64,000 bases of DNA. Source: Thermaerobacter subterraneus DSM 13965. GTDB lineage: Bacteria > Bacillota > Sulfobacillia > Thermaerobacterales > Thermaerobacteraceae. The translations under genes and the position numbers were made by a program. This document shows, piece by piece, positions 12,974 to 32,899 of this stretch; the first letter of the stretch is position 1; every line of letters starts with the position of its first letter. The stretch spans positions 1,675,837 through 1,739,836 of the forward strand of contig NZ_JH976535.1 in NCBI RefSeq assembly GCF_000183545.2. The letters run 5' to 3'. Under the pieces are notes generated by a model. It worked only from the letters and a program-made list of their open reading frames with translations, was not told the origin of the DNA and made no database searches.

Positions 12974-12999
12974 CTGGCCGCCCCGCCGGCAGGTGAGCG

Positions 13000-13028
13000 T
13001 TGCCTGACTTACGTTTTTAAAGTAACTT
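13000..13028 (+). promoter_or_regulatory. Candidate promoter for the LLM oxidoreductase gene
   Basis: TTGCCT (13000-13005) and TAACTT (13023-13028) are separated by 17 bases in a short AT-rich patch immediately after the tandem repeat and 65 bp before the TTG start at 13093. Confidence 0.4.
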
Positions 13029-13092
13029 GATGTTCCGGAGACCATAGCGCCGGGACACACTGGACCCAGAGCCCCGGCGAGGAGGGCCACCC

Positions 13093-14244
13093 TTGGAGAT
13101 CGGCATCTACAGCTTCGGCGATCGCAACACCGACCCCGAGACCGGGCAGCTGATCAGCCCGGCCGAGCGCATCCGGCGCCTCCTTGAGGAGATCGAGCTG
13201 GCCGACCAGGTAGGCCTCGACGTCTTCGGCGTCGGCGAGCACCACCGCCCGGACTACGTGGTCTCGGCGCCGGCCGTCGTCCTGGCGGCCGCCGCGGCCC
13301 GCACCCGGCGCATCCGCCTCACCAGCGCCGTCAACGTCCTCAGCTCCGACGACCCGGTGCGCGCGTTCCAGCAGTTCGCCACCCTGGACCTGATCTCCGG
13401 GGGGCGGGCGGAGATCATGGTGGGGCGCGGCTCCTTCATCGAGTCCTTCCCGCTCTTCGGCTACGACCTCCGCGACTACGACGCGCTGTTCGAGGAGAAG
13501 CTGGACCTCTTGCTCAAACTGCGGGAGTCGGAGCGGGTGACCTGGTCGGGGAAGTTCCGGCCGCCCATCCGGGACCGGGGCGTCTACCCGCGGCCCATCC
13601 AGAACCCCATCCCGGTGTGGATCGCCGTGGGCGGCACCCCCGAGTCGGCCGTGCGGGCGGGGCGGATGGGTCTCCCCATGGCGCTGGGGATCATCGGGGG
13701 CATCCCGGCGCGGTTCCGGCCGCTGGTGGAGATCTTCCGCCAGGCGGCGCGGGAGGCGGGGCATCCCGTGCCGCGGCTGAGCATCAACTCCCACGGGTTC
13801 ATCGCGGACACCTCCAAGGAGGCGGCGGACACCGCCTTTCCCGCCTTCAAGGAGGTCATGGATCGCCTCGGCCGCGAGCGGGGCTGGGGGCCGCTGACCC
13901 GGGAGCAGTTCGAGTGGTCCCGGTCGCTGCACGGCGCCGACTTCGTCGGCAACCCGGAGGAGGTCATCGAGAAGATCCTCTACCAGCACGAGCTGTTCGG
14001 CCACGACCGGTTCCTGTTACAGCTGACGGTGGGCACCCTGCCGCACAAGAAGGTCCTGCGGGCCATCGAGCTTTTGGGCACCAAGGTCGCGCCGGCGGTG
14101 CGGAAAGCGCTGGGGAAGGATCGGGAGGACCGTAGGGGCAGCGGTGACGGGGGCAACAGCGGTGGCGGCCGGGGCCGCGACGGCCAGAAGGATGCTGCGG
14201 CAACGAGCACGGCGGTGGGGACGCCTCCTGCCACGGGGCGGTGA
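13093..14244 (+). CDS. LLM-class flavin-dependent oxidoreductase (luciferase-like, 2I7G-type)
   Basis: 383 aa; TTG start 13093 preceded by GAGGAGGG. Bacterial-luciferase-like TIM barrel with [10 protein letters not shown] at the start, [56 protein letters not shown] and the C-terminal [10 protein letters not shown]. This pattern fits the 'probable oxidoreductase, LLM family' group of flavin-dependent monooxygenases; the substrate is unknown. The last 50 residues are a hydrophilic Gly/Asp-rich tail. Such enzymes use FMN or F420; nothing here decides between them. It stands alone on the plus strand. Confidence 0.88.
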
Positions 14245-15667: not shown

Positions 15668-16720
15668 ATGCCCCAAGACGGCGACCGTACTTCGGAGGCT
15701 GCCAGGAATGCGAGAGACGGCGGGGACCGCTACCGTGCAGGCCCCACAGCGACGGGTCCCGGCCCTGGGACCGCAGCGGGCACCGGCGCCAAGGGCGGAT
15801 CCGGGGCGACCACAGCCAGTTCCCCAGCCGGTCGCGGCATCCAGGAACCCACGACTCGTTCCACCGTCGACCACGGCACCCGGGCGCGCGGCAGCGGTTC
15901 TACCCTCGCCGGCGGCGCCGGCTCTGGCACGGGTGCACGGGCCACCGGCCCCAGTGCCAGTTCCCAAGCGAGCGAAGGGGACCGCAGCGCCGGCGACCTC
16001 CGGGCCGCCGTGCGCCGCGCCCAGGCCAAGCCCTACCCCACGCCCGTCAGCGGCCAGGGCGCCCAGCCCGCGGCGACGGAGGAAGCCCGCGAGCGCCAGG
16101 CGCGGGCGCGGGCCATCACCGCCCAGAGCCCCGAGCCCGAGGTGACGGGGGCCCCCGCCGGCGAAGGGCCCCGCTTCTCCCAGGAAGACGAGCTGGAGCC
16201 CGACGTGGTCCGCCGCCTGGACGCCCACCCCTCCATGCGGATCCCGGGGGTGTGGCAGTGGCTGCCCGGCATCGTCACCGCCCGCCTGCAGGAGCTGGTC
16301 AACTGGGGGCGAGCCAACTCCCTGTGGTATCTGCTCTTCGGCCTGGCCTGCTGCGCCATCGAGATGATGGCCGCCGGCGCCACCCGCACCGACCTGGACC
16401 GGATCGGCTCGGTCTTCCGCGCCTCGCCCCGCCAGGCGGACCTGATGATCGTCTCCGGCACCGTGACGGAGAAGATGGCGCCGGTGGTCAAGACCCTCTA
16501 CGACCAGATGGCCGAGCCCAAGTTCGTCATCTCCATGGGCGCCTGCGCGACCAACGGCGGCCCGTACTACCAGGGCTACAACGTGGTGGACGGCGTGGAC
16601 AAGATCATTCCGGTGGACGTCTACGTGGCCGGCTGCCCGCCGCGGCCGGAGGCGCTGGTCCACGCCATCTTGAAGCTCCAGGACAAGGTGCGGAAGGTCC
16701 ATGTCCCGGCCGGACTCTAA
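15668..16720 (+). CDS. nuoB: NADH-quinone oxidoreductase subunit B (NuoB/PSST) with a long disordered N-terminus
   Basis: 350 aa; ATG 15668 preceded by GGGGTGAT. About residues 205-345 are a standard Nuo[21 protein letters not shown] carries the twin cysteines, [12 protein letters not shown] the third and [18 protein letters not shown] the fourth ligand of the N2 [4Fe-4S] cluster. This subunit passes electrons to quinone in complex I. Normal length is about 160-190 aa; here about 185 extra residues rich in Gly/Ser/Ala/Thr precede the domain. No other nuo gene is in the window, so it is an isolated copy. It overlaps the next gene by 20 bp. Confidence 0.9.
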
Positions 16721-17054
16721 TTCCCCGCGGGCATCCCGGACCCGGACCGGCCGGCCCTTCGGGAGTTTTACACCCGAATGGCCGGTGGGCTGGGTTCATC
16801 CCTGGCAGCGGTACGTGGAGCTGTTCCGGCGGCGGCTCCCGCCGGCCCCCGAGGAGGCTGTTCCCGGGCTAGCCGCGGCCGCCGGCCCCTACCGCCCCCT
16901 CTGCCGCACGCGGGCCTGCTACTACAACCGGGAATGGGTCTGCCAGTTCGACCGGGTAGAACCGGCTCCGGTGGGCGTCATGGAGGCTGCCGTCTGCCCC
17001 CACGCGCTGTTCCTGCAGGAGGGCGGGCCTGGACCGAAAGAGCAACTCAAATGA
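16701..17054 (+). CDS. Uncharacterised Cys-containing protein coupled to nuoB
   Basis: 117 aa; its ATG lies inside the nuoB 3' end (20-bp overlap), implying coupled translation. No family recognised. The central part reads [18 protein letters not shown], then a cluster [17 protein letters not shown] and later AVCPHALF, giving four cysteines that could bind a metal or cluster; no transmembrane helix is evident. By position it might serve complex I assembly or a related redox step, but this is inference from overlap alone. Confidence 0.55.
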
Positions 17055-17088
17055 CTCCGGTCGCCCGCAGGGCCCCTGGCGGAGGAAC

Positions 17089-17311
17089 CCAGCCCAGGAT
17101 GGTCGAGTAAGCGAACAGGATCCGGCCCACCACGACGATGATGGCGCCCGGCCTCCCCAGCGCGGCCTCGAAGGCCGCCGTGGTCAACGGTGCCCCTGTC
17201 AAGGTTTCGGCATCCGCCTGCTGCCACGGGGCCGAGGGCACGATCAACCAGCCCGCCCGGCAGGCGCTGGTATCCATGGCCGGTACCTTCATCGACGCCA
17301 TCGTGGCCCGC
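17089..17311. pseudogene. Scrambled relic of an AgcS-type sodium:alanine/glycine symporter gene
   Basis: Two pieces of the symporter intact at 32900-34315 are present in opposite orientation. Minus-strand 17226-17089 encodes WQQADAETLTGAPLTTAAFE followed by a [20 protein letters not shown] stretch. Plus-strand 17255-17311 encodes [19 protein letters not shown]. In the intact gene these blocks are on one strand, the second just N-terminal to the first. Both pieces are close to the intact copy at DNA level but not identical. The best explanation is decay of a paralogue with a local inversion whose breakpoint lies near 17227-17254. Confidence 0.7.
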
Positions 17312-17362
17312 CCCCGTCACCGGCATGTCTCGCTGGACCGCCGCGAGGGCCGCAGGCCTCCA

Positions 17363-19402
17363 TCAGTCCTCGCCCGAGAGGAGCAACCGCGCCTCCGCCA
17401 CGTCGGCGTGGCTGCCGATCACCGTCAACTGGTCACCCAGGCGCAGCCGCGTGTCTCCGTGGGGAATCAGCCGCTCCTCGCCCCGCATCACGTTCAGGAC
17501 CAGGCAGTCGCCGGGTAGGCGCACCCGGCGCAACGGGCGCCCGTGCAGCCGCGGGTTGCGCACCTCCAGTTCCTCCAGCGCGTAGTCGCGGTCCTCCCCC
17601 GCCAGAAGTCGCCAGGTACTGGGATGCTCCAGCAGCATCTCCAGCATGGCCACCTCGGCCAGCGCGGGCGAGACCACCTCCACCCCGAGCTCCCGGGCCC
17701 GCCGCGCCAGCTCGGGCGAGCCCTGGATGAAGGCCACGGCCCGACCGACGCCCCGCTGGCATGCCCGAGCGGCCAAGGCCACGTTGAGCTCCGGCTCGCG
17801 GCTGAGGGCGGCCAGCGTACGGATCCGCTCCGGTCCCAACTCTTCCACCACCCGCTCCACACCGGCGATGACCTCACCGTCCCAGCCCGGTACGGGCGTA
17901 TAACCGTAACCGCGGTCGAGCGCCCGCTGCCGCCACCCCGGCGTGTCCACCAGGTGCACCCGCCGCCCGTAGGACCGCAGCCGGTCCGCCAGCACCAGCG
18001 CCCGCTCCCCGCCGCCGACCAGGACCACGAGGCGCGCAGGCGGCGGTGCCTCCGTACGGCCGGTCAGCCGTTCGAACAGCAGCGGCGAGAACGTGGCCGT
18101 GACGATGGCCACCAGCACGACGGCGTTGCTCACCGCCTCCTCGAGGACGCCCAGCCGCACCCCGATGCTGGCCGCCGCGATGATGAGGCTTAGGCGGGCG
18201 CTGAGCAGCGTCCCTGCCGCCAGGGCCTGGCGCCAGGAATAGCGCCAGCGGAAGGCCAGGGCCGGCACCAACTTGACCAGGTAGGCGCCCGCCAGCAGCA
18301 AGGGCACCAGCCAGAGGGCCCGGTCCGAACCCGTGACGGCCCTCAGGTCGAACTGGGCGCCCACGTTGATGAAGAAAATGGGCACCAAGAACCCGTAGCC
18401 GATGGCGTCCAACTTGGCATGCAAGGCCGAACCCTGCGATCCGGTCAGCAAAGAGATGATGACGCCGGCCAGGAATGCCCCCAGGATGACCTCGACGCCC
18501 AGCGCCTCGGACAGGGCGATGAAGACCAGGATCAGGGCGAAGGCACCGCGGACTCCCATCTGGGCCGTGGCCTGGGGGAGGTCCTCCAACAGGCGCCAGC
18601 GGATCACGGCCGCACCCAGGCGGTAGAACAGGAACACGGCGGCGAACAGGACCAGGAGCAGGAGCAGGTCGGCCGCCGCGCTGCCCGTCATCAGCACCAC
18701 CATGGCTGTGATCAGCAGCATGGTGGCGAAGTCGGCGATCACGGCGCTCACCAGGATGGTCTGGCCGTAGTCCGTGCCCGTCAGCCCGTACTCCTTGAGC
18801 ACCGGGACCACGATGCCGACGGAGGTGGTCGACAGCACCAGCGCCATCAGGTACGGGTTGCGGACGAACCCCAGCCGGAACAGGACAAAGCTGACGCCCA
18901 GCGCCAGGAGCACCGTGAGGGCGAAGGTGACAAGACCCAGCACCAGGGGGGCGCGGCCGACCGCCCGGCCATGGGCGCTACCGCCCTTTCGGGCGTCGCA
19001 CTCGCCCTCGCCGGCCGCCGGCTCACCGGCTGCCGATGGGCGGGGCACCGGCCCGCTTCCGAGACCGGCAGCCCCCGGCGCCACGGCTCCAGGCACACCA
19101 CCGTCCCGCCACCCCCGCCCGCGACGCCCGCCTGTCACCGGCCGGACGCCGCTGAGCTGGCTGAAGTCGATCTCGAGCCCCGAAAGGAACATGAGGTAAG
19201 CAAACCCAAGGGTGCTCAAAAAATCGAGCCACGGCTCGGGCTGCACCCATTGCAGGCCGCTGCGCCCGATGACGATGCCGGCCAGGATCTCCGCCACCAC
19301 CGCGGGCACGCGGACCACCCGGATCCGGCCCGCCACCAGGGGCACGGCGAAAGCCAGCAGCGTGATGATCAGCAGAGATGTGAAATCGTGGGCTTGTTCC
19401 AT
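17363..19402 (-). CDS. CPA2 family cation:proton antiporter with TrkA-N-like and TrkA-C-like domains
   Basis: 679 aa. About residues 8-430 are the Na+/H+ exchanger membrane domain with GFAYLMFLSGLEIDF, LSTTSVGIVVPVLKEYG and VEVILGAFLAGVIISLL; then a Rossmann-like TrkA-N-type domain (RLVVLVGGGERALVLADRLR) and a TrkA-C-like end (GDCLVLNVMRGEERLIPHGD...LRLGDQLTVIG). This is the KefB/GerN-like layout for K+ or Na+/H+ exchange. A Gly/Ala-rich insert of about 64 residues sits at 87-150 between early helices. The ATG at 19402 lacks a clear ribosome binding site; no better start is seen. Confidence 0.9.
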   Translation of the reverse strand: MEQAHDFTSLLIITLLAFAVPLVAGRIRVVRVPAVVAEILAGIVIGRSGLQWVQPEPWLDFLSTLGFAYLMFLSGLEIDFSQLSGVRPVTGGRRGRGWRDGGVPGAVAPGAAGLGSGPVPRPSAAGEPAAGEGECDARKGGSAHGRAVGRAPLVLGLVTFALTVLLALGVSFVLFRLGFVRNPYLMALVLSTTSVGIVVPVLKEYGLTGTDYGQTILVSAVIADFATMLLITAMVVLMTGSAAADLLLLLVLFAAVFLFYRLGAAVIRWRLLEDLPQATAQMGVRGAFALILVFIALSEALGVEVILGAFLAGVIISLLTGSQGSALHAKLDAIGYGFLVPIFFINVGAQFDLRAVTGSDRALWLVPLLLAGAYLVKLVPALAFRWRYSWRQALAAGTLLSARLSLIIAAASIGVRLGVLEEAVSNAVVLVAIVTATFSPLLFERLTGRTEAPPPARLVVLVGGGERALVLADRLRSYGRRVHLVDTPGWRQRALDRGYGYTPVPGWDGEVIAGVERVVEELGPERIRTLAALSREPELNVALAARACQRGVGRAVAFIQGSPELARRARELGVEVVSPALAEVAMLEMLLEHPSTWRLLAGEDRDYALEELEVRNPRLHGRPLRRVRLPGDCLVLNVMRGEERLIPHGDTRLRLGDQLTVIGSHADVAEARLLLSGED

Positions 19403-19624
19403 TCTTTATGTGTTCCACTCGTCCTTACGCGTTCCCTTCACCAGCCCGGATCGCCGGCCCGGGGACCGGCTCGGCTCGTTGGCCCGTCCCACCGCCCCCG
19501 CCCCGTTGACCCGGCCGTGACTGCCTAAAGTTTCAGTAGGTGCTGGTGGGGAAAAAGCGAAGGAGAGACCGCGACGTGACCGGCGCAAGATCACCTGCGG
19601 GGGCTGGCCACGCGGATGGAAACC

Positions 19625-19894
19625 TCACACGCGAAAAAACAGCCCCACGATGGTGCCGAAGAGCGTCACCCACGTGCCCAGGATGGCCAGAAGAACAACG
19701 CGGTTGTCACGGCGGTAGATCTCCAGGCTGCGGGACATCTTATCGAGCTCCTGCCGCGTGTCCTGGCGAAGATCCTTCATGTCCTGCCGGAGGTCTTTGA
19801 CCTGGGCACTCAGGTCCTCGAGCCTCTGCAGGATGAGCCAGGACTCCGACGGCGGCCCGGGATCCCGGGTGGCCGCGACCTCTGTCACCGCCAT
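19625..19894 (-). CDS. Small coiled-coil protein with a C-terminal membrane anchor
   Basis: 89 aa. About residues 20-55 form a charged heptad-like helix (LEDLSAQVKDLRQDMKDLRQ and onward) and the last 25 residues a hydrophobic helix (VVLLAILGTWVTLFGTIVGL) ending FFRV. The overall shape recalls haemolysin XhlA-like or DUF1640-type small membrane proteins, but I make no firm family call. An AGGGGGTGAT motif overlaps the ATG; a GTG two codons further in fits this site better, so the true start may be 19888. Likely oligomeric at the inner membrane. Confidence 0.6.
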   Translation of the reverse strand: MAVTEVAATRDPGPPSESWLILQRLEDLSAQVKDLRQDMKDLRQDTRQELDKMSRSLEIYRRDNRVVLLAILGTWVTLFGTIVGLFFRV

Positions 19895-20159
19895 CACCCC
19901 CTACGGTGAACAGGAAAAGAGAGGAACCGGGCGAAAAGGCCTACGCCTAGGGTAACACATCAGCCAGTTTATGGCAATCGCGACCTGTGACCCCGTGTCC
20001 CCAGCTCGGTACCGCCTCCGGCCCCATGCGATCCCTGTTCAACAGGGAACATGTCCTTCGGTGATCCCGCCGTGGGTCAATGCCGCTTGCGGAGCGGGCA
20101 ATCACGACTCCGTTCCGGCCCGCTGCAGCGCGAGGCTACGGTGCTCCCAGGCCCGCGGG

Positions 20160-21377
20160 CTAGCCGGTAGCCATCCCCCGCTCCAGCTCCTCATCCCCCA
20201 GCAGGTACCGCAGCGTCACCGCCAAGAGCGCCCGGCCCGCCACCAGCATGGCCCGCTCGTCGATGTCAAAGCGCGGGTGATGGTGGGGGTACGACGCCCC
20301 CACCTCCGGGTTGCCTGCCCCGGTGAAGAAGAAGCAGCCCGGCACCTTCTGCAGGTAGTAGGCGAAGTCCTCGCCGCCCATCACCGGCGCCACCCGCTCC
20401 ACCGCCTCCGCGCCGGCGTAGCGCCCGATGGCCTCGGCGGCGAAGGCCGTCATGTCCTCGTGGTTGAACAGGGCCGGGTAGCCCCGCTCGTAGCGGAACC
20501 GGTAACCGGCCCCGTGGGCCTCGCAGGTTCCCCGCACCAGCCGCTCCAGGAGGACCTCCATCCGGTCCCGCACCGCCGGGCTCAGGGTCCGGACGGTGCC
20601 GGTCAGGGTGGCCGTCTCGGGGATCACGTTGAAGGCCGTGCCGGCGTGCAGCGTCCCCACCGACACCACCGCCGGCTCCAGGGGGTCGACCATCCGTCCC
20701 ACCACCTGCTGCAGCTGGGTGACCACCTGGGCCGCCACCAGGATGGGGTCGACCCCCTGGTGGGGGGCGGCGGCGTGGCAGCCCTGCCCCAGGATCTCGA
20801 TCTCGAACCGGTCGGCGGCGGCCATGGCGTAACCCGGGCAGTAGCCGACCCGCCCCACGGGCAGCGGGGTCCAGAGGTGGGTGCCGAAGATCACGTCGAC
20901 CCCGTCCAGGCACCCGTCCTCGATCATGGGCTTGGCGCCGCCCGGCGCCACCTCCTCGGCGAACTGGTGGATCAGCACCACGCGGCCCCGGAGGCGGTGG
21001 CGCTCTTCCATCAAGACCCGTCCCACCGCCAGCAGGGTCGCCGTATGGGCGTCGTGACCGCAGGCATGCATGACCCCAGGAACCTGGGAGCGGTAGGGCA
21101 CGTCCTTCTCGTCCTGGATGGGCAGGGCATCGAAGTCGGCCCGCAAGGCCACCGCCGGGCCCGGCCGGGCGCCCTCGACCACCCCCACCACCCCCCGCCC
21201 GCCGACGCCGGTGCGGGCGGGGATGCCCGCCTCCTTCAGCCGTTCGGCGATGAAGCGCGGCGTCTCCACCTCCTGGAAGGACAGCTCGGGATGCTGATGG
21301 AGATGGCGCCACCAGGCCACCATAGTGCCGAACAGGGCCTTAAGGCGCGGGCCCCACGGGGCGGGCAACTCCGCCAC
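20160..21377 (-). CDS. M20D family amidohydrolase (N-acyl-L-amino acid / hippurate hydrolase-like)
   Basis: 405 aa from a GTG at 21377 with AAGGAGGG upstream; the frame stays open further upstream but has no better start. Starts WWRHLHQHPELSFQEVETP, then metal and catalytic motifs PGVMHACGHDAHTATLL, QFAEEVAPGGAKPMIEDG and GGEDFAYYLQKVPGCFFFTG. This is the IAA-amino-acid/N-acyl-amino-acid hydrolase group, dinuclear metal peptidases that cleave amide conjugates of amino acids. The dimerisation lid domain lies at about residues 180-300. No operon partner. Confidence 0.92.
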   Translation of the reverse strand: MAELPAPWGPRLKALFGTMVAWWRHLHQHPELSFQEVETPRFIAERLKEAGIPARTGVGGRGVVGVVEGARPGPAVALRADFDALPIQDEKDVPYRSQVPGVMHACGHDAHTATLLAVGRVLMEERHRLRGRVVLIHQFAEEVAPGGAKPMIEDGCLDGVDVIFGTHLWTPLPVGRVGYCPGYAMAAADRFEIEILGQGCHAAAPHQGVDPILVAAQVVTQLQQVVGRMVDPLEPAVVSVGTLHAGTAFNVIPETATLTGTVRTLSPAVRDRMEVLLERLVRGTCEAHGAGYRFRYERGYPALFNHEDMTAFAAEAIGRYAGAEAVERVAPVMGGEDFAYYLQKVPGCFFFTGAGNPEVGASYPHHHPRFDIDERAMLVAGRALLAVTLRYLLGDEELERGMATG

Positions 21378-21480
21378 GGTACTCCCTCCTTGGACGGGGT
21401 GAGCGGCACGGCCTGGGGGGCCGCGCCCCGCCGGTGAGGCGTGCCGGCCCGGCCCCGGCGCAGCCCGCAACGAGGCGGCC

Positions 21481-21540
21481 CGGCCCACGGCGTTGCGGCA
21501 CGGCCCACGGCGTGGCGGTACGGCCCACCGCCTGGCGGCA
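21481..21540 (+). repeat. Three 20-bp tandem repeats upstream of the M20 hydrolase
   Basis: Exact 20-bp spacing at 21481, 21501 and 21521, consensus CGGCCCACGGCGTGGCGGTA with a few changes per copy. They lie in a 509-bp divergent gap (21378-21886) between the M20 gene and the YkvI-like gene. The remaining sequence there is GC-rich with several GCGG/CCGC dyads but no clear promoter. Frames through it are open only because of composition. Confidence 0.55.
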
Positions 21541-21886
21541 TCCTCGAGGCATGGCGCCGGCGGCCGTGGCAGGCCGCACTCCCCACCCTCTGAACGGCTG
21601 GCCCCGGTCCAGCCGGGGATATGGCGCAGCTGGCGCCAGGCCGCCGGGGACCATGCGGGCGCCGTGGCGGTACCCGAATGGGCCGCCCCGGGTTGCAGTG
21701 CCGGGCCCGTCAAACGCTTGGCCGTGCTTGGCTCGTGGGCTGCCGGGCCCGGACGGGCACCCTTCCCGTGCGGTGGCCCATGCCGCCTCCGGCCCGTGCG
21801 CCCGTGCCATCACGGTCTCGGAGCTCTGATTTCACCGCCGGCGGGCGATCATCCTGGTGGGACAGTGCAGGTTGGGGGGCGGGTCC

Positions 21887-23788
21887 ATGGTGGGGAAGGT
21901 CCAGCAGCGGGGCGAAGCCGGTTCGGCCGGACGAACGCGGCCGGCTGCGGCCCTGGGCCCCTGGCGGGTGGCGGCGACCTACATCGGCACCGTGGTGGGC
22001 GCCGGGTTTGCCTCGGGCCAGGAGATCCTGCGCTTCTTTACCGCGTTCGATGGCTGGGGCACCCTGGGCCTGCTGGGCGTGACGGCCCTGCTGGCGGCCT
22101 TCGGCGTGGCCGTGATGCGGCTGGGGGCGGCGACGGGCGCCGAATCGCACCGGGAGCTGGTCCGGGCCGTGGGCGGGCGGTGGCTGGGCACCCTGGCCGA
22201 CTGGGTGATCACGGGATTCCTTTTCGCAGGCACGGCCGTGATGATCGCCGGTTCCAGCGCCATCTTCCGGGAGCAGCTGGGCTGGCCGGGCGGGCTGGGC
22301 GGGCTGGTGATGGCCACTGCCGCCACGGTCACCGTGCTCTTCCGGCTGCGCGGGGTGACGGCCGTCACCTCCCTGGTGGCGCCGGTCCTGGTGGTGGGCG
22401 CCCTGGGCGTCAGCGCCGGGGTGCTCTGGCGCGAGGGCTGGCCCGCCACCCCGCCGGGCGGCACCGGCGTGGCCGGCGCGGCGCCCTTCTGGCCCCTGGC
22501 CGCGCTGCTCTACACCAGCTTCAACCTGGTGCTGGCCCTGCCGGTACTGGCACCCCTGGGCGCGGAGGTGCAGCGGCCCGCCACCCTCAATGCCGGCGGG
22601 CTTTTGGGTGGCGCCGGCCTGGGGCTGGCCGCCCTGGCCCTGCACCTGGCCGTGTGGGCCGGCTTGCCCGCCACCGCCCGGTTCGAGGTGCCCATGCTGG
22701 TGCTGGCCCGCGGCTTCGGTCCGGTGCTGGGGTTGGTCTACGCAGCGATCCTGTGGCTCGAGGTGTACACCACCGCCGTGACCTCCCTCTACGGGGTGGC
22801 GGCCCGGCTGCGCTCCCCCCAGAAGGCCGGCTACGGCACGGTGGTGGTGGTGCTCGGGGCAGTGGCTTTTGCCGCCAGCTTCGTGGGGTTCGCCAACCTG
22901 GTGACGCGGGTCTACCCGCTGGTGGGGTATCTGGGGCTTCTGGTCATGGCGGCGGTGGCCTGGCGGGCGGTGCCCCTGCTGCTGACCGGCCGCCGGCCAG
23001 CGGAAGCTCAGGCCGTGCCGCGGCCCGCCCCGGTGCCCGTGCCGGCCCTCGGCCGCGCCCTGGCCCGGGCGGCTGCGGCGGCCGCCGTCCTCTGGGGCGG
23101 CGCCGGCGTGGCCGGCGGCTCCCTGGGCGGGCTGAGCGTTCCCGAACTGGGCCTGTGGCTGGCCGCCGGTACCGGCCTGGCCCTGACGGGCGCACTGGTC
23201 GACAAGCTGGGCTGGGTGGCGATCCTGACCGCCGGCGCCCGCACCACCCTGGCGGCCGGGGTGCTCGCCTTCCTCTTGGAGTTCGGCCTGGGCAGCCTGT
23301 GGCTTGCCACCACGGGCTACGCCGCCGGCACGTGGCTTCCCCGCAGCCGGCCGGCCCCCGAAGCGCCGGCTGCACCGGATCCCGGCCGGCTCCCCGCTCC
23401 GGATGCTGGCCCCCACCCCGTCTCGCCGGGCGTCACGGCTGGCAGCCCGACCCAGGAGGCCGGGCTGCCGCCCGGCACCAGTTTCCCCGGCCACTGGCCG
23501 GGTGCCTGGTGGGTCGAACCTTCGCCGCCCGCCGCCGGCGGGCTCTCCTCGGGCCACGGGAACACCGGCGGTGCTGTAAGGAGCGGCAACGGGTCCAGGA
23601 GCGCAGGTGCCGCCGGCCCTGGGACCGGCATGCCGGATCCTCCCGCCTGGGCAGGCGACCTGCTGGCCCACGCCGGCCTGACCTGGCCCGCGGCGCTGGC
23701 GGCCGTGATGGCCGGCACCGCCGCCCCGGCGGTGCTGGCGGCCCTGACCCGCCGGCGCCGCGGAGGCGGCCCCCCGGCCGCTTCCTGA
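21887..23788 (+). CDS. YkvI family membrane carrier with a C-terminal extension
   Basis: 633 aa; ATG 21887 chosen for its GGGGGGC site. The N-terminal 340 residues form a multi-helix carrier with the family opening RVAATYIGTVVGAGFASGQE and FTAFDGWGTLGLLGVTALLA, like Bacillus YkvI, a relative of the APC/BCCT-type fold whose substrate is unknown. Beyond about residue 350 come further hydrophobic helices (GGLSVPELGLWLAAGTGLAL and onward), a Pro/Gly/Ser-rich stretch of about 120 residues and one last helix near the C-terminus. The family is normally about 350 aa, so the second half is unexplained. Confidence 0.8.
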   Translation: MVGKVQQRGEAGSAGRTRPAAALGPWRVAATYIGTVVGAGFASGQEILRFFTAFDGWGTLGLLGVTALLAAFGVAVMRLGAATGAESHRELVRAVGGRWLGTLADWVITGFLFAGTAVMIAGSSAIFREQLGWPGGLGGLVMATAATVTVLFRLRGVTAVTSLVAPVLVVGALGVSAGVLWREGWPATPPGGTGVAGAAPFWPLAALLYTSFNLVLALPVLAPLGAEVQRPATLNAGGLLGGAGLGLAALALHLAVWAGLPATARFEVPMLVLARGFGPVLGLVYAAILWLEVYTTAVTSLYGVAARLRSPQKAGYGTVVVVLGAVAFAASFVGFANLVTRVYPLVGYLGLLVMAAVAWRAVPLLLTGRRPAEAQAVPRPAPVPVPALGRALARAAAAAAVLWGGAGVAGGSLGGLSVPELGLWLAAGTGLALTGALVDKLGWVAILTAGARTTLAAGVLAFLLEFGLGSLWLATTGYAAGTWLPRSRPAPEAPAAPDPGRLPAPDAGPHPVSPGVTAGSPTQEAGLPPGTSFPGHWPGAWWVEPSPPAAGGLSSGHGNTGGAVRSGNGSRSAGAAGPGTGMPDPPAWAGDLLAHAGLTWPAALAAVMAGTAAPAVLAALTRRRRGGGPPAAS

Positions 23789-23917
23789 GCGGCCCGCCGG
23801 CCGCTTCCTGAGCGGCCTGTCGCCCCCGGCTCCCGAGCACGCGCCGCCGGCCCGTAAGCCGGCCGCCGGCCCGTACGCCGGCTCCGGCCTGTGCTCCGGC
23901 CCCCGGCTCGTGAGCCG
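23776..23917. repeat. Tandem hairpin repeats after the YkvI-like gene
   Basis: Two identical 19-bp copies of GGCCGCTTCCTGAGCGGCC (23776-23794 and 23799-23817) each form a GGCCGCT/AGCGGCC hairpin; the first overlaps the stop codon. Then about four 18-19 bp copies of GCCGCCGGCCCGTACGCCG type follow (from 23843, 23862, 23881, 23899), most able to fold on CCGGC/GCCGG. The pair right at the stop may act as a terminator for the plus-strand gene, although no U-tract is present. Confidence 0.55.
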
Positions 23918-24051
23918 CCAACTGCTCCGCTGGTAAGCAGATCCAGCGAGTCCAGCGTGACCTTGGGCCGGCGCGGAGCGTCCCGGCGCCGGGCGCCCTG
24001 GCGCGGACGGTCCGGCCCCGCCGGCGGTCCTTCCGTCCTGTTTCCGTCCTT

Positions 24052-24945
24052 TCAGTCGTCCTCGACCCGGATGCTGAAGTCGGCCGCGTCCGCCGTCTCC
24101 GGGTCGCGCCCCGCCCGGACGCCCCGGTCCAGGGCGTCGATGGCCGCCACCTCTTCCGGCGCCAGCCGGAAGTCGAAGATGTCGATGTTCTCCCGGATGC
24201 GCTCCGGCCGCACCGACTTCGGGATCGCCGCAATGCCGTGTTCCAGGTGCCAGCGCAGCACCACCTGGGCCGGCGTCTTGCCGTACTTGCGGGCCAGGCC
24301 GGCGACCACGGGATGATCCAGCACGTCGCCCCCGCCGCCCTCACCCCTTCGCCGCAGGACGCCGCCGATGGGCGACCACGCCTGGGTGACGATGCCCAGC
24401 CGGTCGTGAAACCGGCGCAGTTCCACCTGGGTGAAGAAGGGATGCAGCTCCACCTGGTTCACCGCCGGGACCACGCCCGTGCGGGCGATCAGCTCCTCCA
24501 GGTGCCGGGGGCCGAAGTTGCTCACCCCGATGGCCCGCACCCGCCCCTCCTCCAGCAGGCGGATGGCCGCGCGGTAAGCGGCGACCGTGTCATCGAACCG
24601 CATGGGCACCGGCCAGTGCAAGAGGTACAGGTCGACGTGGTCCACTCCCAGCCTGCGCAGGCTGGCTTCAAAGGCCCGCAGGGCCGAGTCGTAGCCGTAG
24701 TCGGCGATCCACAGCTTGGTGGTGAGGAAGATGGCGGACCGGTCGATTCCGCTGCGACGGATCCCCTCGCCGACCTGCCGCTCGTTGTTGTAGGCGGCCG
24801 CGGTATCGATCAGCCGGTAGCCGCAGGCGACGGCCGCCGCGACTGCGGCAGCCGCCTGGTCAGGTGGCGTGAGGTAGACGCCGAGCCCCAAGAGCGGCAT
24901 GGTGACGCCGTTGTTCAGCGTGATGACGGGCGTTGCAGTGGTCAC
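24052..24945 (-). CDS. Aldo/keto reductase
   Basis: 297 aa TIM-barrel NADPH-dependent oxidoreductase. The catalytic tetrad is visible: Asp in YRLIDTAAAYNNE, Tyr in the same block, Lys in IFLTTKLWI and His in LYLLHWPVP. NADP contacts lie in IGVSNFGPRHLEELI and the C-terminal IPKSVRPERIRENIDIFDF. Closest to the AKR5-like 2,5-diketo-D-gluconate reductase/glyoxal-aldehyde group. It begins 21 bp after the C26 hydrolase gene, so it is the last gene of the leftward 32-24 kb operon and probably reduces a carbonyl product of that pathway. Confidence 0.92.
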   Translation of the reverse strand: MTTATPVITLNNGVTMPLLGLGVYLTPPDQAAAAVAAAVACGYRLIDTAAAYNNERQVGEGIRRSGIDRSAIFLTTKLWIADYGYDSALRAFEASLRRLGVDHVDLYLLHWPVPMRFDDTVAAYRAAIRLLEEGRVRAIGVSNFGPRHLEELIARTGVVPAVNQVELHPFFTQVELRRFHDRLGIVTQAWSPIGGVLRRRGEGGGGDVLDHPVVAGLARKYGKTPAQVVLRWHLEHGIAAIPKSVRPERIRENIDIFDFRLAPEEVAAIDALDRGVRAGRDPETADAADFSIRVEDD

Positions 24946-24966
24946 GAATCCGCTCCCTTTCCTTGG

Positions 24967-25938
24967 TCACCGCATCAAAGGATCACAGCCATGGACGGCC
25001 GCGGGCCCCGGCTCGACCTTCACCGCGGCCCCCGCCGGGGCCGCCCCAGGCGGCGCGGAACCGCCCGCGCCCGCATCCGCGCCCGCACCGGCCCCCTCGC
25101 CCGCCGCTGCTGCGGTGACGGCCGCCGGGGTGACCGTCCGGCCGGCGCGGCCTTGCCGGTAGACCCAGGCCGCCTCGACGAGCCCGGTGAAGATCCCCGC
25201 CAGGGCCGGTTCGTCCCGCCACAGCAGCTCGGGGTGGAACTGGACACCCAGGATGAAGGCCTCCCCTTCGCCCTCCACGGCCTCCACCACCCCGTCCTGG
25301 GCCCGGCCGCTGACCCGCAGCCCCCGGCCGGGCTGGCGCACCGCCGCCACGTGGAAGCTGTTGACGTGCACCCGGGTGCGGCCCCCCAGGCAGGCGGCGA
25401 GCCGGGAGCCGGGTTCGACCCAAAGGCCGTGACCTCGCCCGGCGCCCGGTTCCACCTGCAGGTGGGACCCCGGCGGGTGGACCCGGCGCGTCAGGGTCCC
25501 GCCCAGGAGCTCGTTGAGCGTCTGCATGCCGCGGCAGATGGCCAGCACGGGCATGGCCCGCCCCAGGGCACCCCGGAGCCAGACCACATCGGAATCATAG
25601 CGGTAGGGGGCCTGCTCGCGCAGCCCCGGCAGCGCCCGCAGCCCGGCAGGAAGGTACGGATAATTCCCGGGCACCACCAGGGCGTCGATGGACTCCAGCC
25701 AGGGGTCCACCGCCTCGCCCGGCCGCGCCACCGGCAGGATCACCGGGAGGCCGCCCGCGGCGGCCACGGCCTCCACGTACGTCATGGGCAGGACGGCCAC
25801 CAGCCGCGGGGGCGGCTCCCCGGTCCCGCAGGGACCGTGCCCCCCTGCGCCAGGTCCCGAAGGCAGCATGCCCCCGCCGGAACGGGCGGGGGCCATGAAG
25901 TCCACCGAGGCCGCGATGCCGATGACGGGCCTCGCCAT
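24967..25938 (-). CDS. Peptidase C26 / gamma-glutamyl-GABA hydrolase-like class I amidotransferase
   Basis: 323 aa. The nucleophile Cys is in LAICRGMQTLNELLGG, the His in ILGVQFHPELLWRDEPA, and the opening MARPVIGIAASVDF and DALVVPGNYPYLPAGL match PuuD-like hydrolases that split gamma-glutamyl amides. A Gly-rich loop of 25 residues at 17-42 and an Ala/Gly tail of about 55 residues are additions. Located between an ABC permease gene and an aldo/keto reductase on one strand, so it may act on the imported compound. The substrate is not predictable. Confidence 0.88.
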   Translation of the reverse strand: MARPVIGIAASVDFMAPARSGGGMLPSGPGAGGHGPCGTGEPPPRLVAVLPMTYVEAVAAAGGLPVILPVARPGEAVDPWLESIDALVVPGNYPYLPAGLRALPGLREQAPYRYDSDVVWLRGALGRAMPVLAICRGMQTLNELLGGTLTRRVHPPGSHLQVEPGAGRGHGLWVEPGSRLAACLGGRTRVHVNSFHVAAVRQPGRGLRVSGRAQDGVVEAVEGEGEAFILGVQFHPELLWRDEPALAGIFTGLVEAAWVYRQGRAGRTVTPAAVTAAAAGEGAGAGADAGAGGSAPPGAAPAGAAVKVEPGPAAVHGCDPLMR

Positions 25939-26040
25939 GGCTGCATCATCTCCCAGGATGACCGGTCCGCCTCACCCTGCGGACGGGACGGCCGGACGGC
26001 GCCACCCTGCGGATGGGCCGCCCGGCCTCACAGCCCGGCC

Positions 26041-27108
26041 TTACACCCGCAGCCGCGGGTCCAAGAGCTCCCTGAGCCCGTCGCCCAGGGTGTTGATCGC
26101 CAGCACCAGCACCAGCACCGCCAGCCCCGGCAGGGTCGACACCCACCAGGCGGTGCTCAGGTAGTCCCGGCCCTCGGCCACCATGGACCCCCAGGCCGGT
26201 ACGTCGGGCGGCACCCCGATGCCCAGGAAGCTCAGGGACGCCTCCATCAGGATCATGTGCCCGGCCCGCAGGGTGGCCACCACCAGCAGGGCGTGCAGGA
26301 TGTTGGGCAGGATCTCCCGCGCCAGGATGCCGGCGTGGCTGCGGCCGATGGCCCGGGCCGCCTCCACGTAGGGTTTCGCCTTCTCCGCCAGGACCTGGCC
26401 CCGGGCCACGCGGTAGAACTCCACCCAGGCCTTGAAGGTCAGGGCCAGGATCAGGTTGCCGATGCCCGGTCCCAGGATGCCCATCATCAGGATGGTGAAG
26501 AGCAGGTACGGGAAGGCCATCAAGAGGTCGGCCGCCCGGGAGAGCACCTGGTCCACCAGGCCTCCCGCGTAGCCCGCCACGGCCCCCAGCACCGAACCCA
26601 CCACCCCCGCCACGGTCACCGCCGTGGCACCGACCAGCAAGGACACCCGGGCACCGTAGAGCAGCCGGGTGAGAAGGTCGCGCCCCACCCGGTCGGTGCC
26701 CAGGAGGTGCTCGGGGTGGCCTCCCGGCAGGAAGGCCGGCGGGGCCAGGCGGGCGCTCAAGGTGAAGTCGTCGGGGTCGTAGGGCGCCAGCCACGGGGCG
26801 GCCACCGCCACCAGGACGAACAGGGCCACCACCGCCAGGCCCGCGGCCACCTGCGGGTGGCGCAATGCCCGTCGCCAGGGGTCCGCGGTGCCGGGCAGGG
26901 GAGCGGCTGCGGCACCAGCGTCGAGGCCCGGCGCCCCTTCCCCTGCCCCTCGCCCCGTCCCCGGGCCGGCCCCGGGATCGAGCCCGGGCCCGAGGCCCGG
27001 CCGGGCGGGCGACCCGGGCGCAGCGCGACCGGGAACGCCCTCGGGCTCCCGGGCCGCCGCCGGTTCGACCCACCGCAGTGCGGGCCGCCTTTTCCACGCA
27101 CCGTGCAT
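26041..27108 (-). CDS. Oligopeptide/nickel-type ABC transporter permease, DppC-like
   Basis: 355 aa; ATG 27108 with AGGAGGGG upstream. An N-terminal Pro/Gly/Ala-rich stretch of 75 residues is followed by the OppC leader helix, the HLLGTDRVGRDLLTRLLYGA block diagnostic of DppC/OppC/NikC, and the EAA loop YVEAARAIGRSHAGILAREI, ending with NTLGDGLRELLDPRLRV. Forms the channel with the DppB-like protein, whose gene ends 46 bp upstream. No ATPase gene is adjacent. Confidence 0.93.
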   Translation of the reverse strand: MHGAWKRRPALRWVEPAAAREPEGVPGRAAPGSPARPGLGPGLDPGAGPGTGRGAGEGAPGLDAGAAAAPLPGTADPWRRALRHPQVAAGLAVVALFVLVAVAAPWLAPYDPDDFTLSARLAPPAFLPGGHPEHLLGTDRVGRDLLTRLLYGARVSLLVGATAVTVAGVVGSVLGAVAGYAGGLVDQVLSRAADLLMAFPYLLFTILMMGILGPGIGNLILALTFKAWVEFYRVARGQVLAEKAKPYVEAARAIGRSHAGILAREILPNILHALLVVATLRAGHMILMEASLSFLGIGVPPDVPAWGSMVAEGRDYLSTAWWVSTLPGLAVLVLVLAINTLGDGLRELLDPRLRV

Positions 27109-27154
27109 CCGCTCCCCTCCTTTGCACGCAGGCCGCCGGCCCCGCCCGGAGCGC

Positions 27155-28174
27155 CTAGGCCTCCCGGATCCGCGGGTCCAGCCAGGTGTAGGCCAGGTCG
27201 ACCAGGAGGTTCATCACCAGGAAGGTCAGGGCGTAGACCATCACCGCCCCCTGGACCACCGGGTAGTCCCGGGCGAAGATCGCCTCGACCACCAGGCGGC
27301 CCAGACCCGGCCAGCCGAACACCGTCTCCACGATCATGTTGCCGCCCAGCAGCACGCCGGCCTGCAGGCCGACCACGCTGGCGGTGGGGATCAGGGCGTT
27401 GCGCAGGGCGTGGCGCAGGACCACCCGCCCTTCGGGGAGGCCCTTGGCCCGGGCCGTGCGGACGAACTCGGCCCCCATCACCTCCAGCATGCTGGAGCGG
27501 GTGACCCGGGCCACCACCGCCGCCAGCTCGGCCCCCAGGGTGACCGCCGGCAGCACCAGGTGGGCCAGCGCCGAGCGGAAGGCCGCCAGGTTCTTGGCCA
27601 GCAGGGTGTCCACCAGCAGGAAGCCGGTGTGCCAGGGCACCGTGCCGGCATACTGGGAGGCGATGCGGCCCGAGGTGGGCAGCCATCCCGTCCCCACGGC
27701 CAGCAGCAGGATCAGCACGATGCCGAGCCAGAAGGCCGGCATGGAGATCCCCAGGGAGGCGGTGGCCATGACCGCCCGGTCGAGCCAGGAGCCGCGGCGG
27801 GTGGCGGCCAGGACCCCCAGCGCCACCCCCGCCGCCACGGCGAAGGCCAGCGCGGCCAGGGCCAGCTCCACCGTGGCCGGCAAGGTGGCCAGCAGCACCT
27901 GGCCCACGGGCTGGCGGCTGCGGATGGACTCGCCCAGGTCGCCCCGGGCCAGATCGCCCACGAACCGGGCCAGCTGGACGGGCAGGGGCTGGTCCAGGCC
28001 CAGCTGGCGGGCCAGGGCCCGGGCCTCCGCCTCGCTGGAGGTGCCCCCGCCCCGCAGCATGATGTCCACGGGATCGCCGGGCATTATCCGCAGGAGGACG
28101 AAGCTCACCAGCACGATCCCCACCGCCAGCGGCAGGGCCATCAGCACCCTGCGCAACACCCACCCGCCGCGCAT
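27155..28174 (-). CDS. Oligopeptide/nickel-type ABC transporter permease, DppB-like
   Basis: 339 aa; the ATG at 28174 was chosen because GGAGGTGACC precedes it. Begins with a membrane helix and FVLLRIMPGDPVDIML, has LGISMPAFWLGIVLILLLAV, the EAA loop FVRTARAKGLPEGRVVLRHA and the family ending LLVDLAYTWLDPRIREA. Pairs with the DppC-like subunit; together they would move the ligand captured by the lipoprotein encoded 251 bp upstream. Confidence 0.94.
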   Translation of the reverse strand: MRGGWVLRRVLMALPLAVGIVLVSFVLLRIMPGDPVDIMLRGGGTSSEAEARALARQLGLDQPLPVQLARFVGDLARGDLGESIRSRQPVGQVLLATLPATVELALAALAFAVAAGVALGVLAATRRGSWLDRAVMATASLGISMPAFWLGIVLILLLAVGTGWLPTSGRIASQYAGTVPWHTGFLLVDTLLAKNLAAFRSALAHLVLPAVTLGAELAAVVARVTRSSMLEVMGAEFVRTARAKGLPEGRVVLRHALRNALIPTASVVGLQAGVLLGGNMIVETVFGWPGLGRLVVEAIFARDYPVVQGAVMVYALTFLVMNLLVDLAYTWLDPRIREA

Positions 28175-28425
28175 CCGGTCACCTCCCCGTCCCGTCACGG
28201 CCTGCGGCCACCGCGCTCCCGGGCCACCGCGCCCGCCGGCCGCCGCCCGCCAGCCGCCCCCATCCTGGCAACGGCAACCGCCGGCCGAGACCCCGTCCTG
28301 CACCGCCCCTGGGCCCTTCCCGTGCCTGCCCCTGCACCGCCCGGGCTCGCCGGTTCTTCCCCACGCGCCCCGGGCCCGCACACGTGCCGCAGGCCAGGCC
28401 GCGGCCCGGCGCCGGCCCCCGCCCG

Positions 28426-30048
28426 TCAATCGACCTTGTACCCCGCCTCCCGCAGCAGCTGCTTCGCCTTCTCCGGATCGTAGGGGTAGGGCTGGAGGCT
28501 CTCGTCGTAGCCGAAGCCGCTGGGCAGCAGCGCCGTGGCCACCCGGTGGGCGTGGCCCTTGTAGAGCTCCTTGAGGATCGCGTCCCAGTCGATGGCGTAG
28601 TTCAGCGCCTGCCGCACCCGGGGATCGGTGAGCACCTTGTTGTTCAGCTCGATCATGTAAAGCCGCGTGCCCTGGGTCACCTTGACCTGCACGTTGGGGT
28701 CCTTCTCCAGCTGGGCCACCAGGTCCGGCGGCACCTCCTGGATGATATGGACCTCACCGTTCTGCAGGGCGGCGATGCGGGTGGCCGGCTCGGGCATCAT
28801 GCGGAAGACCACCCGCTGGAGCTTGGCCGGCCCCACGGGCGGCAGGTCCGGCGAGCCGCCGTAGTAGTCGTCGAACCGCTCCAGGACGATCTGCCCGTCC
28901 AGGCTGCCCTCGACGAAGCGGAAGGGCCCCGCCCCCACGGGCTTGGCCGACAGGCCGGCACTGCCCACTTCCTCAACGTAGTCCTTGGGCACGATCTGCG
29001 TGTGCACCAGCAGCTGGACGAAGGCGGCCGACGGGTTGGCCAGCTTCATCCGCACCGTGTAGTCGTCGACCTTCTCGATGGACTCCAGCGGCTCCACCAG
29101 CCCCTTGCGCGGCGACGGCTGGCCGTCCAGGCCGTCTTCAGCCAGGATCCGCTGGAAGGTGAAGACCACGTCGTCGGCCGTCAGGTCCTCGCCGTTGTGG
29201 AACTTGATGCCCCGCCGGAGCTTGAACACGTACGTGGTCGGGTCGGGCTGTTCCCACGACTCGGCGATCTCGGGCACCACCCGGCCGTCGGGCGTCCGGG
29301 TGACCAGGCCGTCGTAGATGTTGCGGATCACCGTCTCGGTGTCCCGGTCGCGGTAGGCGGCGGGGTCCAGGGACAGGATCCGGTCGGCCCGCAACCCCAC
29401 CACCAGGGTGTCGCCGCCCTCCAGCTCCACGTCGTGCAGGTTGATCCGGCTGTCCATGGAGGGCTGCCAGTTCTTCACCCGGGCCGAGGCCGCCTCGATG
29501 GCGTCCAGGTAGTAGCCGAAGATCCAGGGGGCGTCTTCGTAAAGGATGGCCTGCGCCTTCTTATAGGCCTCCAGCGCCTTCGCCTCGTCGGTGGCGGCCG
29601 CCGCCTCCTTGAAGAGGGCGTCCACCTCCGGGTTGGAGTAGAAGGAGTAGTTGCCGCGACCGCCCGTCTCCAGCTTGGGCACCGCCAGGTCCACCGGGGT
29701 GAAGGTGGCGCTGCCCCAGTCGGTGGCGTAGGCCTGCCGGGTGCCCTTCTGGGCCTCGGCCACCAGGGTCTGGTACTCCCACACCCGCACCTGGGCGTCG
29801 ATGCCCACCTGCTTGAGGTACTGGGCGACGACCTGCAGCTCCGCCTCGCGGTTCTTCGCCCCGTCCAGGGTGATGCTCAGCACCTGCCCCTGGGACGAAC
29901 CGGCCTCGCCGCCCGCCTGCTCCTGGCCGCCGCCGGTGCAACCCGCGGCGGCCAGGAGCAGGACCAGGGCCACCGCCAGCGGGACCAGCCGGCCCAGGCG
30001 GTGGGGAGCGGCCCGCCGCCTGGGCCCCCGCCGGAACACACCCCTCAT
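28426..30048 (-). CDS. Family 5 ABC substrate-binding lipoprotein, apparently circularly permuted
   Basis: 540 aa; ATG 30048 with GGGAGG upstream. A lipoprotein signal ends at Cys37 (LAAAGC). Residues about 56-211 then match the C-terminal part of DppA/OppA proteins: NREAELQVVAQYLKQVGIDA, NYSFYSNPEVDALFKEAA, KKAQAILYEDAPWIFGYY, closing INLHDVELE. Residues about 213-540 match the normal beginning: TLVVGLRADRILSLDPAAY, IYDGLVTRTPDGRVVPEIAE, RRGIKFHNGEDLTADDVVFT, and end at YPYDPEKAKQLLREAGYKVD, precisely where the C-terminal part would normally follow. The gene is uninterrupted and well initiated, so this looks like a functional permutation. It lies upstream of dppB and dppC. Confidence 0.9.
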   Translation of the reverse strand: MRGVFRRGPRRRAAPHRLGRLVPLAVALVLLLAAAGCTGGGQEQAGGEAGSSQGQVLSITLDGAKNREAELQVVAQYLKQVGIDAQVRVWEYQTLVAEAQKGTRQAYATDWGSATFTPVDLAVPKLETGGRGNYSFYSNPEVDALFKEAAAATDEAKALEAYKKAQAILYEDAPWIFGYYLDAIEAASARVKNWQPSMDSRINLHDVELEGGDTLVVGLRADRILSLDPAAYRDRDTETVIRNIYDGLVTRTPDGRVVPEIAESWEQPDPTTYVFKLRRGIKFHNGEDLTADDVVFTFQRILAEDGLDGQPSPRKGLVEPLESIEKVDDYTVRMKLANPSAAFVQLLVHTQIVPKDYVEEVGSAGLSAKPVGAGPFRFVEGSLDGQIVLERFDDYYGGSPDLPPVGPAKLQRVVFRMMPEPATRIAALQNGEVHIIQEVPPDLVAQLEKDPNVQVKVTQGTRLYMIELNNKVLTDPRVRQALNYAIDWDAILKELYKGHAHRVATALLPSGFGYDESLQPYPYDPEKAKQLLREAGYKVD

Positions 30049-30192
30049 CCCGCCTCCCAGCACCAGTGTCTCCGGCCGCCGGCCCCGCCGGCCCGCCGGC
30101 CTGCACCCGCCGTCCATACGCCTCCCCCTTTCCCCGGGGGCGGGCGCCGCCCGCCCCCGGACCGGTTTCCCTTTGCCTTGCCTCTCCCACCG

Positions 30193-30651
30193 TCACGGCC
30201 CACCGGAAGGGTTGTCACCAGCGGCACTCCCGCCGCGGCCGGCCCGGACTCCGCCGCCCAGGGGCCGCACCGCGGCCGGAGCGGCCCCTTCCACCGGAGC
30301 CGGGGGTGTCACCTCCCGCACCGCCGCGGGCGGCGCCCCGGCCGGTTCGACCTCCAGATCCAGCAGAGGCCCGTACTGCTGGGTGCCGAAGACATCGGTC
30401 TCTCCCGGGCTTCCCGCCGGGCGGCGCCGCCGGACCGTGAACTTGATGGCCCGGGCGGGGTCAAAATGGACGAAACAGTACAGGCGGTCGGGGCCGATGC
30501 CCAGCAACCGGCAGAGGGCCTCCGGGGTCAGCCCGGGGCTCCGGCAGGCCCGCCGGTACGCCTCCTCCGACGGGAAGAGGATGTCGAAGGTGATCAGGTC
30601 GACGCCGGCATTCTTGCTCCGGATGGTGCTGGCCAGCTCACGCAGGCGCAT
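30193..30651 (-). CDS. DUF4387 protein, AtuA partner
   Basis: 152 aa from ATG 30651, with GGAGGG upstream; it overlaps the AtuA stop by 14 bp. Residues 1-100 are a DUF4387 domain: LRELASTIRSKNAGVDLITF, DILFPSEEAYRRA, then FVHFDPARAIKFTVRR and PGETDVFGTQQYGPLLDLEV. DUF4387 is regularly encoded next to AtuA (DUF1446) proteins and probably works with them on a hydroxy- or terpenoid-type acyl substrate, though no reaction is established. The last 45 residues are an Ala/Pro/Gly tail. Confidence 0.88.
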   Translation of the reverse strand: MRLRELASTIRSKNAGVDLITFDILFPSEEAYRRACRSPGLTPEALCRLLGIGPDRLYCFVHFDPARAIKFTVRRRRPAGSPGETDVFGTQQYGPLLDLEVEPAGAPPAAVREVTPPAPVEGAAPAAVRPLGGGVRAGRGGSAAGDNPSGGP

Positions 30652-32206: not shown

Positions 32207-32285
32207 CGCAGGTCACCCCTCAGGTGCGCGTTGGTCCGGCAGCCGCCGCCTTGGGCGATGGCCACCCCGCCCCAGAAACGACAAA

Positions 32286-32311
32286 CCCCGTCCGGAGACG
32301 CCGGGACGGGG
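32286..32311 (-). terminator. GC-rich hairpin 80-105 bp upstream of the AtuA operon
   Basis: CCCCGTCC (minus 32311-32304) pairs with GGACGGGG (32293-32286), followed on the minus strand by TTTGTCGTTTC. It could terminate read-through from the AgcS gene 600 bp upstream or act in the operon leader. The surrounding 693-bp gap (32207-32899) also has a GGCCGGTGACCGGCC dyad near 32390-32405 and a 22-bp duplication at 32776; no coding potential is convincing there. Confidence 0.4.
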
Positions 32312-32775
32312 CAGGATGATTCTGGACGGCCGGGACTGGACAGCTTGCGCAGCCAGGACCGGAACGTGCCTCCAGCTCCCGGCGCCCCCACCGGCCGGTC
32401 ACCGGCCGAAGAACCCTCCACCTCCTTCCTGGCCGGCCGGCAGGACGGAAGGCTGCCCGGCGCGGCCACCGGCGCGGCCGGCGGCTTAGCAAGCAGCCTC
32501 GCCCCCTTGACCGGCCCCTTCCCGCGCCGGCCAGGGGCCCAGGTGCCGGCGAACCCCGTACTTGACGGCTCCGTGGCCGTTGCCGCCGCCATCCGGGCCA
32601 CCCCCTCCAACCACCGTCGGCGTGCGGCCGTACCCGGACCGGCCGGGGCGGCCTGGCTCCCCAAGGCCGCCCCGGCCTCATTCCATCGATACGCCGCCGG
32701 CGGGGAAAGTTGCCCGCCGGAAGGGGGCGATCACCCGCGGTCACGGCCCGAAAGGCGGGGCCGCTCGGTTGCCAA

Positions 32776-32818
32776 GGTACACCGGTGGGTTCCCTGCGGT
32801 ACACCGCCGGACTCCCTT
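32776..32818 (+). repeat. 22-bp direct duplication downstream of agcS
   Basis: GGTACACCGGTGGGTTCCCTGC-type unit at 32776-32797 is followed by an imperfect second copy starting GGTACACCGCCGG at 32798. It is one of several short tandem duplications in the spacers of this window. Confidence 0.45.
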
Positions 32819-32899
32819 CAGGAGCCCCGTCCCCGACCGGGCCGTCCCGGCCCGCAGGCCGTAACGGCCGCGACGGGCCGGAGCCCGAGACGGGCCGGC

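Follow-up and report, generated by a model that had tools for sequence, protein, structure and literature searches.

A dead AgcS symporter fragment with one block on the opposite strand in Thermaerobacter subterraneus DSM 13965

The 64,000-nucleotide stretch of the Thermaerobacter subterraneus DSM 13965 genome analysed here (the window) contains, at positions 17088-17323, a scrap of a gene for AgcS, a sodium:alanine-type symporter, and the intact, resident AgcS gene lies 16 kb away at 32900-34315. The scrap, referred to below as the relic, is an ordinary dead pseudogene fragment of AgcS in which two neighbouring parts of the gene are kept in gene order, with one of them on the wrong strand. 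The arrangement of the two blocks, together with their divergence from intact AgcS genes, makes it probable that the relic is the remnant of an AgcS copy, second or foreign, that underwent one microinversion in place, rather than a copy made recently from the resident gene. The comparators were three congeners of the window genome, called G001, G002 and G003.

Two blocks of one gene on opposite strands

The resident gene is a full member of its family by both PF01235 (expectation value, E, 6.4e-145; 483.8 bits) and TIGR00835 (526 bits against a cut-off of 273), and it is the one full AgcS copy, in addition to the relic, in the 2.89-Mb genome. A match at the DNA level was found in 4 of 154 genomes of the class (this genome included), every one within the genus, and in each of the three congeners this match is the single AgcS ortholog. 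Over the gene, the resident copy is 96.5% identical to the ortholog of G002, 83.4% to that of G001 and 83.1% to that of G003, with a synonymous divergence (dS) of 0.10 against G002 and 0.64 against G001.

By blastn within the window, block 1 of the relic matched the resident gene plus to plus at 130 of 167 positions (E 3e-32), and block 2 matched plus to minus, 17247-17306 against 33426-33367, at 52 of 60 (E 7e-15). Against the whole genome the E-values were 1.4e-31 and 6e-14, the next best place reaching 6.4e-4 over 39 bp, and these values exclude chance similarity and simple decay as accounts of the two blocks; decay or deletion alone, moreover, cannot move one block to the other strand. An AgcS relic with blocks on both strands, produced by an inversion-type event, had been proposed in the initial annotation of this DNA, and that proposal is borne out, in that the alignment contains both blocks and on opposite strands, not a single block or two on the same strand. 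It had also placed an inversion breakpoint inside the former gene, which holds for one breakpoint, at about codons 317-322, but not for the other (about codon 297), which sits at the edge of the relic. Both peptide stretches that it named were found, but they are not contiguous in the intact protein, where about 50 residues separate them (about codons 303-313 and 366-376), and they lie about 143 bp apart in the relic (17121-17263) rather than about 30 bp; near contiguity in the gene is instead a property of the DNA blocks (codons 297-317 and 322-377), which abut in the relic.

In all, about 220-240 of 1416 bp and about 80 of 471 codons are kept, of which a segment of about 60-77 bp is flipped. 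The firm end of block 2, at 17306, is that of the alignments to the resident gene and to G002; blastn against G001 carries the block over 17252-17323 at 82% identity. When extension of the right end was evaluated by an anchored test with 2000 mononucleotide shuffles, taking the best of four comparators, an in-register extension to about 17323 was reached by 21 of the shuffles, and the added stretch 17307-17323 is likely genuine on this alignment. With the extension included, the end of block 2 (17323) and the inner end of block 1 map beside each other in G001, at 897029 and 897027, so that next to nothing appears to have been lost at the inner breakpoint, as a conservative flip would leave it. 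Because the order of the blocks in the relic is that of the gene, the blocks abut with an 8-bp overlap and only the strand of block 2 is reversed, the arrangement points to a short flip in place. A candidate third AgcS piece in the spacer that follows the relic, best matched to 32998-33018 on the plus strand and reached by 7 of 500 shuffles, was rejected as the lowest of 32 comparisons.

The relic is also plainly disabled. Homology beyond chance is accompanied by truncation, a TGA within the match (the translated match of block 1 is 58% identical and contains this one stop), a single-base indel at the junction and the flipped block. A minus-strand open reading frame (ORF) at 17047-17301 (84 amino acids) aligned to positions 260-309 of the 392 in PF01235 with 23.2 bits, short of the cut-off of 24, and the relic falls outside full-length membership of the AgcS family. 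An RNA element was considered and rejected, as no Rfam match was found in 16600-20300 and no promoter or terminator pattern in 16600-17500, and no function for the relic is visible in its sequence. Table 1 collects the features discussed here and below.

Table 1. Window coordinates of the relic, the resident gene and the neighbouring genes
Feature	Position	Strand	Description	Basis
Intact AgcS, sodium:alanine-type symporter	32900-34315	-	471 codons (amino acids), 1416 bp	PF01235, TIGR00835
Relic block 1, AgcS codons ~322-377	17088-17254	-	Same orientation as intact gene; matches 33187-33352	
Relic block 2, AgcS codons ~297-317, probably to ~321	17247-17323, firm to 17306	+	Flipped relative to block 1	blastn
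Inner junction of blocks	17247-17254		8 bp aligning to both blocks (ACC.GCC common), one extra base alongside	Overlap of high-scoring segment pairs, alignment
Left edge of relic	17088-17089		G003 homology stops and AgcS homology starts, 2-bp overlap	
Spacer, relic to antiporter gene	17324-17362		39 bp, no accepted AgcS continuation	Shuffle tests
NADH-quinone oxidoreductase subunit NuoB, left neighbour	15668-16720	+	Long N-terminal extension	Profile match
CPA2/Kef-type cation:proton antiporter gene, right neighbour	17363-19402	-	With TrkA_C domain	PF00999, PF02080

Divergence and age of the fragment

The blocks had been described as close in DNA sequence to the intact copy and the event as recent, and neither description was supported by comparison with the congeners. 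Identity of the relic to the resident gene is 76-81% by block (127 of 167 identical columns in block 1, 59 of 73 in block 2), which is lower than the 83-97% found among the AgcS orthologs of different species, and divergence at constrained sites puts the relic before the split from the closest congener. At codon positions 1 and 2 that are invariant in the intact copies of four species, it differs at 26 of 151 sites (20 of 104 in block 1 and 6 of 47 in block 2); the corresponding count for third positions in block 1 is 7 of 23 (Fisher p 0.26, with too few sites). The differences of block 1 from the resident gene number 19 at the third codon position and 12 and 9 at the others. The dS of 0.10 between T. 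subterraneus and G002 corresponds to about 0.05 changes per synonymous site per lineage since their split, against about 0.17 or more for the relic. Under a neutral clock, the loss of the relic as a gene would predate this split. The AgcS loci from a scan of genome contigs were not used in these comparisons (among the best 80 of 594 loci none was from the genus by title, and protein identity was at most 67%). In the best tree the relic sits on the stem below T. subterraneus and G002, with a branch of 0.25 and a bootstrap value of 73%. At the 11 sites of block 1 that separate these two from G001 and G003 the relic splits 6 to 5, which is what a branch close to the base of this stem should show.

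The flanks of the relic are identical to G003 at 345 of 366 columns (94.3%) and 438 of 471 columns (93.0%), that is, 21 and 33 columns differ. Since this identity far exceeds that between the relic and any intact AgcS, the relic appears to be older than the split of its flanks from G003, and a copy newly made at the formation of the present joint is disfavoured unless the event was highly mutagenic. A recent copy of the resident gene is rejected on this divergence of relic and flanks. The absence of the relic from G001 and G002 is uninformative on its age, because in both the DNA from about 17015 to 20143-20170 is missing altogether; a whole AgcS gene at this place in relatives, which had been suggested as a check, was found in none of the three congeners. 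As a caution of more general use, recognisable similarity to an intact gene that evolves slowly does not make a relic recent.

The locus in congeners

The relic lies between the gene for NuoB and a cation:proton antiporter gene. The DNA of T. subterraneus and of G003, the sole informative congener, is colinear as far as 17089 and from 19556 onwards, with just 182 bp between these points in G003, and the relic and the antiporter gene form an insert-like stretch, 17088-19555, that is missing there. Neither the relic nor the antiporter gene was found in G001-G003. The closest matches to the antiporter gene outside its own genome, among 398 genomes of the phylum, are at most 46% identical, and no donor came from the scan of genome contigs. 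A windowed identity profile, from which opposite-strand segment pairs were left out, gave T. subterraneus a higher identity with G003 (93.5%) than with G002 (91.0%) on the left of the relic (15987-17089), the NuoB part being 93.2% identical to G003, whereas on the right (20144-34902) G002 is the closer of the two (92-94%). Because the affinity of the left flank to G003 runs against the trend further right, DNA exchange or recombination appears to have touched the locus.

At the joint that the relic occupies in the window, part of the 182 bp of G003 is the decayed end of an IS1182 transposase gene (locus L046, about 12994-13230 on the plus strand of that locus). This piece matches the NCBIfam IS1182 model with E 1.3e-6, far under the full-length cut-off, and Pfam DDE_Tnp_1_6 with E 3.3e-5, just under the cut-off, and over 126 bp its DNA is 92-94% identical to IS copies of T. 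subterraneus and G003. The match enters the shared flank by 17 bp, but mismatches crowd there, and G003 was not accepted as proof that the IS1182 piece predates the relic; the T. subterraneus DNA at the left joint aligns to IS1182 over 10 bp only (9 of 10). A 16-nt inverted repeat (16786-16801 and 17081-17096, 94% complementary) has a right arm that spans this joint and may be due to chance. The NuoB ORF has 350 amino acids, of which about the first 200 precede the NuoB domain (start near residue 201); G001 retains this extension (84% over residues 1-346), and each of the three congeners has a second NuoB-like match. A small minus-strand ORF of 90 amino acids (19625-19897), with no Pfam family above cut-off, lies in a stretch common to G003 and lacking in G001 and G002.

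Origin of the arrangement and likeness to known systems

We infer that a second or foreign AgcS gene decayed to the present fragment after diverging long before the closest congener split off, that codons 297 to about 321 were most likely flipped by a one-off replication or repair error, either a short template switch or microhomology-mediated repair, and that its joining to the antiporter gene, beside NuoB, was probably the step at which the fragment was placed or trimmed. Template switching and microhomology-mediated repair need few bases, and the 8-bp inner and 2-bp left overlaps would fit either. No inverted repeat brackets the flipped segment in the relic (three imperfect pairs of 9-10 nt occur in 163 bp). 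The test of breakpoint similarity scored ungapped inverted repeats in the intact genes against 300 draws each, and the best repeats, 6/7 in T. subterraneus, 7/8 in G001, 7/8 in G002 and 5/7 in G003, were reached by 128, 68, 46 and 294 draws, respectively. Without repeats at the segment ends, and with the breakpoints at chance level, inversion by long inverted repeats or by site-specific recombination is unsupported.

Several findings weigh against this account. The chance level of the breakpoint repeats means that the usual signature of a microinversion is missing, and the stretch 17307-17323 rests on a p of about 0.01. Flanks that keep their order, as expected around a microinversion, are seen on the block 1 side, but past 17323 no AgcS was found in 32 shuffle comparisons with two tail lengths, and an in-place flip is therefore visible on one side only. 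The other four of five tree placements were not rejected by the approximately unbiased test (p 0.09-0.25), and the age estimate would be too high if the flip or joining event was itself highly mutagenic.

Within the proposed origin from a second or foreign copy, a special case is joint import of fragment and antiporter gene, the donor being an unsampled lineage of the genus whose antiporter gene already stood beside a decayed AgcS. It is a tentative possibility, in keeping with the absence of the antiporter gene from the three congeners, the position of the relic outside T. subterraneus and G002 in the best tree, and the affinity of the left flank to G003; the failure to find a donor counts against it, and the lack of the whole stretch in G001 and G002 makes loss from an ancestor that had it equally possible. 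A different reading, in which pieces of AgcS were copied in both directions from the resident gene into a repair junction between the antiporter gene and NuoB, is unlikely. Such templated filler would account for the exact position of the relic at the left boundary of the stretch that G003 lacks, for the mere 2-bp overlap at the left joint, and for pieces that are short, adjacent in their source and on opposite strands. However, a junction peculiar to this lineage should be no older than the common origin of its flanks, whereas the relic differs from the resident gene far more than the flanks differ from G003; the differences in block 1 are commonest at third codon positions, as in coding DNA; and, mapped onto the G001 gene, the blocks join with hardly any loss or overlap, which random filler does not require. 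Scrambled filler from both strands is of a kind described for eukaryotic repair, and it is slightly more doubtful again that end-joining or template-switch repair joined the antiporter gene into the chromosome and left such filler from another gene; if true, the site would be the fossil of such a repair event in a thermophile.

An inverted junction beside duplicated sequence is a typical assembly error, but a chimeric join is very improbable here, as pieces with no more than 78-87% identity to the one complete AgcS gene of the assembly cannot be its misplaced reads. Least credible of all is that an AgcS copy carries an active intragenic inverton, or phase switch: a short segment within a gene is indeed flipped, but inverted repeats at its ends are lacking, the breakpoints in the intact genes show similarity no better than chance, and neither orientation yields an AgcS gene, with about 80 of 471 codons present.

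By itself, the proposed dead fragment with a flip in place carries little weight; it is a clean small example of bacterial intergenic DNA in which gene loss, a short inversion and an insertion have all left their record at a single site. The source of the fragment is the AgcS family of sodium:alanine symporters (PF01235, TIGR00835), from which it departs in its small remainder of codons and its one wrong-strand segment. As a decayed and truncated copy of a known gene it resembles the bacterial pseudogene fragments surveyed by Liu et al. (2004, PMC522871), and it differs from them in its internal flip. It shares with the microinversions described by Potapova et al. (2022, PMC8755829) a short segment reverse-complemented in place, whereas the flip in the relic is longer, is bacterial and has breakpoint repeats at chance level. 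In template switching, an error of replication by which sequence close by may be copied off the opposite strand (Walker et al. 2021, PMC7954356; Escherichia coli quasipalindrome work, PMC7202029), there is a further likeness, and the footprint of the relic, as judged from its alignment, would be compatible with short-range switching of that kind.
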